Source: Parcubacteria group bacterium Greene1014_15
GTDB lineage: Bacteria; Patescibacteriota; Minisyncoccia; Phycocordibacterales; VMGT01
Direction: 5' to 3'
DNA length: 51,337 nucleotides
Assembly: GCA_007376725.1 (NCBI GenBank)
Contig: VMGT01000009.1
Span: forward strand, 1 to 51,337
Shown: one piece after another, positions 30,639 through 33,512 of the stretch
How the letters are laid out: every line of letters starts with the position of its first letter
How positions within the stretch are numbered: the stretch's first letter is position 1
The notes under the pieces: model-generated
Databases searched by the model: none
Seen by the model: the letters and a program-made list of their open reading frames with translations, nothing else
What the model was told of the DNA's origin: nothing
Program-made: the position numbers and the translations under genes

Positions 30639-30896
30639 TCAGTCATAAATACGATGCGGTCCTATTTGGTAAAAACGAACACTACCATCTTCAACAAATT
30701 CAAAAATTATTCTGTGTGTATACGATACCGAAAAAGACCAAAACCCACCAAGTATGCCTGCAAGCTTGTGCGTTTTCAGTTGCAAATCAAAAGGATTTTT
30801 ACGAAAAATGAATTCTTTCTCTTCTGCTATTTCTTGTAGTCTACGCGGTAACTTTCTATATTGCCGTTTAAATTTTGGCAAATAATAGATTTTCAT
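30639..30896 (-). CDS. RelE/ParE-superfamily toxin (YafQ-like)
   Basis: An 85-residue toxin of the RelE/ParE superfamily, many of which cleave mRNA on the ribosome. It has the short family fold: a basic helix pair (FKRQYRKLPRRLQEIAEEKE), LKTHKLAGILGGFWSFSVS, then YTHRIIFEF and the end FYQIGPHRIYD. The C-terminal HR.Y resembles the catalytic end of YafQ/RelE proteins. It starts 7 nt after the antitoxin gene, in the same operon. Confidence 0.9.
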   Translation of the reverse strand: MKIYYLPKFKRQYRKLPRRLQEIAEEKEFIFRKNPFDLQLKTHKLAGILGGFWSFSVSYTHRIIFEFVEDGSVRFYQIGPHRIYD

Positions 30897-30903
30897 ACAC
30901 GAA

Positions 30904-31113
30904 CTATCCGCGGAGATCGCGTAAAGATTTTAGTACCTTTCCCTTCCCGCGTTCAAAACTTTTACGATCATTTGCGAGCTCCTTTGCAAGTCTGTGTTCT
31001 CGGAGAACATGCCGAAAAAACTCGCTTTTTGAAGCGAATCCTCCATTTTTTACTTCTTGTTCTACTTCCTTTACCAAACTATCAGGCAATGATATGTTTA
31101 CGATGTTTCTCAT
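30904..31113 (-). CDS. Ribbon-helix-helix antitoxin
   Basis: A 69-residue CopG/ParD-type protein. The N-terminal MRNIVNISLPDSLVKEVEQEV is the DNA-binding beta strand and helix, followed by FASKSEFFRHVLREH and a basic tail that would wrap the toxin. It is the first gene of the pair; such antitoxins repress their own promoter. An inverted repeat lies just upstream. Confidence 0.9.
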   Translation of the reverse strand: MRNIVNISLPDSLVKEVEQEVKNGGFASKSEFFRHVLREHRLAKELANDRKSFERGKGKVLKSLRDLRG

Positions 31114-31318: not shown

Positions 31319-31606
31319 ATGGCCACACCAAAATCAAAAAGAAAGATGATCAAAAAGCGGGGGACAAGCAGGAAAAAAAGGGTGCTGCTTCGGCGTACTC
31401 TTTTTTGGGATGTAAACCCAAAAGATATTGATCCGAAAAAACACGCAAAATACGTTATCGAGCGCATTATGGATTTCGGAAACGATAAAGAGGTACGTTG
31501 GATGTGGAATCAATATTCGCGCGCTACTCTTAACCAAGTGGCAAAGTCGTCCCGCGGACTTCGCCCACGAACAAGAGAATTATGGACCACACTGACCAAA
31601 AAATAA
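31319..31606 (+). CDS. Antitoxin partner of an AbiEii-type toxin (DUF6922-like)
   Basis: A 95-residue basic protein with a Lys/Arg-rich N-terminus and the core LFWDVNPKDIDPKKHAKYVI and ERIMDFGNDKEVRW, typical of the small proteins encoded just before AbiEii/AbiGii nucleotidyltransferase toxins. It overlaps the toxin gene by 25 nt. The name is based on family resemblance and position; the antitoxin role is inferred. Confidence 0.75.
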   Translation: MATPKSKRKMIKKRGTSRKKRVLLRRTLFWDVNPKDIDPKKHAKYVIERIMDFGNDKEVRWMWNQYSRATLNQVAKSSRGLRPRTRELWTTLTKK

Positions 31607-32259
31607 CAAACTGGCATCCCGATATCCTCCCGCGTCCGACAAAAAAAGCTTTGGATACACTCTCGCAAGCAGATTGGCTCACGAAGAGTACTTGGTATCT
31701 CGCTGGCGGAACGGCTCTTGCACTTTTTGCTGGTCATCGCCAATCTCTCGATCTCGACTTTTTTACTCCTGAAAAAGATTTCCCCGTTGAGAAACTGCTC
31801 CGTAATTTAGAAAATCTTGAGTGGATTACTGATATCGCTGAGCCAGGAACTGTTTATGGAAGACTACACACCGCAAAAATAAGTTTCATCGCATACCCAT
31901 TTTTTATCTACAAAGAAGAACCATTACAGTATGGCACAATCCGTATTCTTTCCCCACATGATATTGCCGTTATGAAAACAATAGCCATCAGCCAACGTGG
32001 GAAAAAACGTGATTTCATTGATCTCTATTGGTATGTGCACCATGGCGAACCATTGATTGATATTCTTCGATGCCTTCCCAAACAATATCCCACTATTGCA
32101 CATGATTATCACCATATCTTGAAAAGCCTTCGGTACTTTGACGACGCAGAAAGTGACCCGATGCCAGAGCTTTTTTTCACCGGAGATTGGAAAACAATCA
32201 AATCGTATTTTCAGCGCGAAATACCCATAATCATCAAAAAACTTCTTGATCTGCAATAA
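31582..32259 (+). CDS. AbiEii/AbiGii-type nucleotidyltransferase toxin
   Basis: A 225-residue nucleotidyltransferase of the AbiEii group, whose studied members modify tRNA or other targets and cause growth arrest, sometimes during phage infection. The active-site marks are YLAGGTALALFAGHRQSLDLDFF (GG-x-T and the DxD) and LSPHDIAVMKTIAISQRGKKRDFIDLY (Lys and Asp of the family). Start at 31582 overlaps the upstream antitoxin; no other start is better. Two toxin-antitoxin pairs thus lie side by side on opposite strands. Confidence 0.88.
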   Translation: MDHTDQKITNWHPDILPRPTKKALDTLSQADWLTKSTWYLAGGTALALFAGHRQSLDLDFFTPEKDFPVEKLLRNLENLEWITDIAEPGTVYGRLHTAKISFIAYPFFIYKEEPLQYGTIRILSPHDIAVMKTIAISQRGKKRDFIDLYWYVHHGEPLIDILRCLPKQYPTIAHDYHHILKSLRYFDDAESDPMPELFFTGDWKTIKSYFQREIPIIIKKLLDLQ

Positions 32260-32274
32260 AGGCCTTTGGGACTC

Positions 32275-33110
32275 CTACATTGTTTTTGGCTCCTGTTTTT
32301 CTTGATCTTGAAAATTCCTTTTTGAGACTATGTTGCTCCCTGATTCCACCACTGTCACCGCAAGTTTTTGAATTTGCTCATTTGCCTGCGCAAGTTGCTT
32401 CTCAAGAGCAATAATATTCGTCGAACGCAGTTTAACAATATCCTCGAGATTATGTATTTTGAGTTCCGCAACTTCATGCTCACGCTGTGTATCTTTCGCA
32501 GAAAGATCTGTGGCTACTTTCGCCCGCTGTTCCATTTCTTTGCGCACACGTTCTTCCGCATCACGCACAGCTTTCTCAAGCTCTTTTGGAAACGCTTGCA
32601 CACGCACTTGTAGTTCACGCATTTCTTCCTCTTGTATTTTTAGTTTCTGCTCACGCTCGCTAAATTCTTTTTCCTTGGCAGTATATTTTTCAATAAATTG
32701 CCGTTCTTTGTCGCGAACTTTAAGTGCATACTCATCCTCCTCTTTCCGTCGTTCAATGTGAGTTTTATACGTATACTCCTCTTGCTCATGTTTCCACTCG
32801 CCTCGCGCATGTTTGATATCCACATAAAGTTTTTCCTTTTCTTGCTCTGTCTCCCGGTGCAGGCCTGCATACTCGTCATGAAAACGCGTTGTCATGTCAA
32901 GCGCGATTTTCCGCAAATCATCGAGAACCGCAACAGCACGCTCACCAGATATGTCAGCACGTTTTTCAATGGAAATGGGGGTACTGGTTTTTTTCCGTCG
33001 CCGTCTTCCTGTCGCGTGCCACCCTTCTCTTCATCCTTCATTTCAAACAATTTTTGATACGCGTCCCATAAATCCTTTTTTGTACTGCGATCGCTCAAAG
33101 TTTTTTCCAT
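32275..33110 (-). CDS. Coiled-coil protein needing a -1 frameshift at an A7 tract
   Basis: The first part (from ATG 33110, MEKTLSDRSTKKDLWDAYQK) and the second part (from a TTG near 32916) are in different frames. Upstream of that TTG, the second frame stays open without a stop back to an A7 run (T7 at 32988-32994 on the plus strand) and codes for ISGERAVAVLDDLRKIALDM, a sensible continuation. Reading GGA AAA AAA then stepping back one base to ACC AGT joins both frames into about 277 residues. The bulk is a long Glu/Lys-rich coiled coil. Options: programmed -1 frameshift, RNA polymerase slippage, a recent inactivating indel, or a sequencing error. No ribosome site or membrane segment; function unknown. 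Confidence 0.65.
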
Positions 33111-33188
33111 ATTTTTTGATATTTTATAAATAATAGACCTCTATTGTGCATTTTTCTTAGCATAGAGCGACTATCATTGCAACCACTG

Positions 33189-33376
33189 TTAGGGCCTATC
33201 CACTATCTAATGCCTAAACGAAATGTTCAAAATTCGTTGCGAAAATTGCGTATTTTGAGGAAGCATATGGGGAAGCTGACGAAAAAGACGCAAGTTGTAG
33301 TAGAAATTTTGGACATTTCGGCAGGCAAGCCATATTTTGCTTCATATTTTGCGGTTAGATAGTGGATGGGCTCTTA
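33189..33376. mobile_element. IS5-like foldback element with TTA duplication, in the 33111-33512 gap
   Basis: TTA, then GGGCCTATCCACTATCTAA (33192-33210), about 140 bp of A/T-rich non-coding DNA, then the inverted terminus GTGGATGGGCTC and TTA (33374-33376). Seventeen of 19 terminal positions match. The 182-bp element is flanked by TTA on both sides, as expected for a TNA duplication. The remaining 402-bp gap contains no gene. Confidence 0.85.
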
Positions 33377-33512
33377 GTATACCAAAGTATTGACACGTGT
33401 ATTCTTGCAGAATACACTTTCCGAAGCAAAATATACGGTCGATGAGTGCATATTCTGCCTTTCTCTCTGCATTAAGCAGTACTTTATTTAGTAATTAATC
33501 GTTTAAAAAATT

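Follow-up and report, generated by a model that had tools for sequence, protein, structure and literature searches.

The two overlapping reading frames at positions 32275 to 33110 of the window (the whole stretch of 51,337 nucleotides analysed here, which is contig 4 of this genome) are, as judged from sequence homology, two parts of one ancestral gene coding for a coiled-coil protein. We show that this single gene, now split, has intact relatives in one frame and lacks clear signals of recoding. With a probability of roughly 80%, the split has an ordinary explanation, namely a one-base insertion or deletion (indel) near the 5' end, either real or in the consensus. The gene is present as a single copy in the 1.17-Mb genome, which is assembled in 55 contigs. 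Genome size and relatives point to a host among the small-genome candidate phyla (Patescibacteria). The features of the region are listed in Table 1.

Table 1. Features of the split coiled-coil gene and its convergent neighbour (positions in the window)
Feature	Positions	Strand	Remarks
Frame-0 ORF, 72 aa (72 codons)	32892–33110	−	ATG at 33110, TGA at 32894–32892
N-terminal part of frame 0, conserved motif SDRSTKKDLWDAYQKL	within 32892–33110	−	Window-free profile, positions 6–40, E = 1.1e-7
Tail of frame 0, out of frame past ~32994	within 32892–33110	−	Coding-frame Markov model
−1 frame, 251 open codons, coiled-coil part	32275–33030	−	Window-free profile, positions 92–283, E = 1.4e-45; stop ends at 32275
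A7 run (T7 on the + strand), phased GGA AAA AAA	32988–32994	−	Most indel-prone candidate site
Interval assigned to the frame change	32950–33009	−	93% of model weight; includes C5 at 32981–32977
ATGA, shared by the frame-0 stop and an ATG read in the −1 frame	32892–32895	−	Coupled re-initiation possible
AbiEii-type nucleotidyltransferase toxin gene	31582–32259	+	Convergent; it and the coiled-coil gene end 15 bases apart

Homology across the two frames

Among 380 genomes searched across the phylum, 15 others have a relative of the gene. The nearest homologue is 33–35% identical to it; the best match, L004, covers residues 6–261 at 35%. All 15 have a single open frame from the N-terminal motif to the coiled coil, as do two further, weaker matches from a later profile search, and the frame split is absent from every one of these relatives. 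The sequence-only reading had mentioned one-piece coiled-coil relatives, and these 15 proteins bear it out. It had also proposed that one-frame homologues spanning the join would point to a real gene and that homologues ending at the frame-0 stop would refute its proposal; all 15 run through, and none ends there.

A profile containing the fused product matched the window, but such matches are circular, and we therefore used one built from the 15 one-frame homologues with the window left out. This profile matches frame 0 in the N-terminal motif, which reads STKKDLWDAYQ in this gene, and the −1 frame in the coiled coil (Table 1); it gives no score for any other stop-free frame segment of the region. 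Since the profile divides neatly between the two frames, the motif and the coiled coil are parts of one ancestral protein, and the earlier view that the two frames are unlikely to be paired by chance holds.

The gene fits an uncharacterised coiled-coil family of the phylum with an STKxELWxAY-like N-terminal motif and a long helix harbouring EEYxY and FPxxLE motifs. AlphaFold2 folds the −1 product into a single 214-residue helix, and 173 of 239 residues reach a pLDDT of at least 90; the coiled-coil part is thus predicted to be a single long helix. Joined at the A7 run, the fused product has 278 residues, one more than had been counted before. The −1 frame is open back to the A7 run, as previously noted, and indeed from a position further upstream (Table 1). 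About 240 stop-free codons lie beyond the run, and the remainder of the coiled-coil gene is therefore undamaged.

Position of the frame change

A phase-specific Markov model was trained on 341 other ORFs of the genome and chose the true frame in 98% of tests on 92-nt stretches. It assigned 33110–32995 to frame 0 and 32987–32896 to the −1 frame, and the switch falls most probably within 33009–32950. The A7 run received 15% of the model weight, 47% fell on 32987–32976, which takes in most of the C5 run, and 27% on 32975–32950. Over 32941–32896, where frame 0 has yet to reach its stop, the sequence reads as coding in the −1 frame (margin of 7.6 log units), and hence the frame-0 tail is unlike selected sequence; past the A7 run, the model attributes to this tail no coding character of its own.

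Homology does not locate the join: wherever in the overlap the junction is set, the profile score is 153.6–156.9 bits, because the linker is not conserved. The A7 run is the longest homopolymer in the change interval and for that reason is regarded as the likeliest site; we infer that the frame changes at this A-run. The T7 stretch of the + strand is where the sequence-only reading had located it, and its proposal that the frames join there is in part upheld: the run is a probable site and lies inside the change interval, but it holds only 15% of the weight.

The overlap of the frame-0 stop with an ATG codon raises the question of two coupled cistrons, in which re-initiation would produce the coiled coil alone. 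The ATGA overlap is present, the profile begins to match the −1 frame exactly at the ATG codon of this overlap, and the split sits in the least conserved linker. Nevertheless, such an arrangement is quite improbable: the stretch from A7 to the ATG has −1 coding character, which argues that the ancestral gene read through it, Met is not conserved at the ATGA site among the homologues, and we estimate that chance alone would give an overlap of this kind about once in ten cases. Re-initiation yielding a coiled coil without the N-terminal motif would not be ancestral but may be the current route for some product. This arrangement overlaps with the indel explanation, since a real indel could have led to it.

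Explanations for the split

Programmed −1 ribosomal frameshifting at A_AAA_AAA would generate the 278-aa protein and the 72-aa product in a fixed proportion. The sequence-only reading had recognized a known slippery type, and the in-frame GGA AAA AAA indeed places a heptamer of the X_XXY_YYZ form in the correct phase for a −1 step. In addition, fusion with the −1 frame yields a protein that has homologues, and a weak AGGAAG is found 10 nt upstream. However, the heptamer is common in this genome. In 473 ORFs (497 kb), which contain 213 A7 runs, in-frame A_AAA_AAA occurs 112 times vs 116 expected from synonymous shuffles; at such a count, it is tolerated and not avoided. It is also present in frame inside six of the one-frame homologues (L005, L006, L007, L009, L010 and L018), and L004 has neither a run of at least six nor a slippery heptamer. 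The AGGAAG match, resembling a Shine–Dalgarno (SD) sequence, does not clearly stand out: its best anti-SD duplex, at −4.3 kcal/mol, is equalled by 42% of gene positions. Among pseudoknot-free folds, no downstream RNA structure was detected (z = +1.07; 175 of 200 shuffled sequences folded equally well). Finally, a shared A7 split, suggested earlier as support for recoding, was found in none of the 15 homologues.

The dnaX gene of Escherichia coli has an upstream SD-like element and a downstream stem-loop, for which the gene of the window has no clear counterpart. Both genes have a correctly phased A-rich heptamer, but that of dnaX is A_AAA_AAG, and A_AAA_AAA shifts far less than A_AAA_AAG in E. 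coli (PMC5009743). Given this evidence, programmed frameshifting is highly improbable, and we infer that the frame change is not programmed. Thus, the first interpretation stands as regards one gene with one-frame relatives spanning the join, and its proposal of programmed −1 frameshifting is not supported.

A real indel could also be partly rescued by slippage of the RNA polymerase or the ribosome on the A7 run, with no dedicated signals. The undamaged downstream frame is consistent with this, and there are precedents. Slippage rescue has been shown for some frameshifted genes of Blochmannia and Buchnera, which, like the gene studied here, are otherwise intact, have a single indel attributed to an A-run and possess one-frame homologues (PMC3017870). 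Similarly, tssM1 of Citrobacter rodentium is split just past an A-run (PMC4256274). However, the precedent runs are longer, with A11 in tssM, for which slippage was measured at 20–25%, and tracts of at least nine counted in Blochmannia; the endosymbiont genomes have an extremely high A+T content and numerous tracts of at least nine, whereas the genome studied here has 45% G+C and its gene an A7 run. Avoidance of long A-runs is seen in many bacteria, and selection against slippage usually begins at nine A (PMC1088944). This genome likewise avoids such runs, with five A9 runs vs 22 expected and no longer ones in the 473 ORFs, and tolerates A7 and A8. The A7 run is shorter than the length usual for transcriptional slippage (at least nine). 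Rescue of this type is therefore unlikely as the explanation, and weak, incidental production of full-length protein by slippage is possible. It is very improbable that the A7 run is a functional slippage site setting the dose of a coiled-coil protein encoded beside toxin–antitoxin genes, or a phase-variable switch operating through A-run length.

We favour the indel. The ancestral gene would have had one frame, as in its relatives, and a one-base indel near the 5' end, probably a length change of the A-run that is now A7, would have split it. This indel may be a real recent mutation, making the gene a young pseudogene or a strain variant, or an error of the assembled consensus. A truncated 72-aa peptide would be expected as the main product. 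Three points count against this explanation: no damage is seen elsewhere in the gene, so the mutation, if real, must be recent; the assembly looks clean at homopolymers; and the A7 run is a correctly phased heptamer, while the chance of some A-run of at least seven in the overlap is ~0.07, as calculated from the genome run density.

Regarding consensus errors, ~670 kb of the genome was checked for homopolymers against ~650 kb of the same-genus genome G001. No gene split attributable to a homopolymer was found in this comparison, in which 260 A/T runs of at least seven in coding regions were aligned. The likelihood of a random consensus error is thereby lowered, though less decisively for a single site: the rule of three puts an upper bound of ~1% on errors per run, which is compatible with one error among the several hundred runs of the genome. 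The few split candidates in the comparison lie outside homopolymers, with one exception: a small ORF near an A7 run, which recurs in both comparison directions and has the appearance of a gene start (ATGAAAAAAATT). When compared with the same-genus genome, two genes of this genome, at L033:12579-13102 and L027:2245-2938, have frame splits that are not at homopolymers and are likely pseudogenes.

Distribution, genomic neighbourhood and meaning

No relative of the coiled-coil gene was found in the 60 nearest genomes, and a class sample of 384 genomes contained, besides the window, one weak partial match only. Its absence from these genomes suggests that the gene was probably acquired and is dispensable, and its recent inactivation by an indel would thus come as no surprise. 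Searching GTDB contigs and IMG/VR by pattern yielded no close relative of the −1 frame product, a two-row alignment scan gave two distant partial matches only, and the single match in a plasmid search was distant and cyanobacterial. Sequence searches of Pfam, NCBIfam and the PDB returned no usable family for the protein. The gene is laterally scattered and uncharacterised.

In six of 16 loci (raw count; positions 31319–33110 in the window), the coiled-coil gene adjoins toxin–antitoxin-type genes. The neighbours are AbiEii in the window and in L014, a HepT-like protein in L005, a nucleotidyltransferase in L006, HicA/HicB in L012 and a PIN protein in L015; in four of the six loci, the neighbour is convergent and 8–46 bases away. 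A second toxin–antitoxin-like pair, composed of a YoeB/RelE-like toxin and a ribbon-helix-helix partner, is found at 30639–31113 beside the DUF6922/AbiEii pair, which places the coiled-coil gene within a toxin–antitoxin cluster. On the other side, 80 bases upstream of the gene, lies a 196-bp MITE-like element (33185–33380) with 20-bp imperfect terminal inverted repeats (33191–33210 and 33355–33374). It has 45 matches in the genome, two in the same-genus genome and none in the same-family genome, and represents a MITE-like expansion.

As a frame-broken gene, the locus carries little weight beyond annotation, and the two ORFs are best recorded as one disrupted gene. A limited search of the open-access literature found no report of recoding of such a kind in this lineage of small genomes. 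If the A7 run were borne out in the reads and the full-length protein were made, this gene would exemplify recoding in that lineage.
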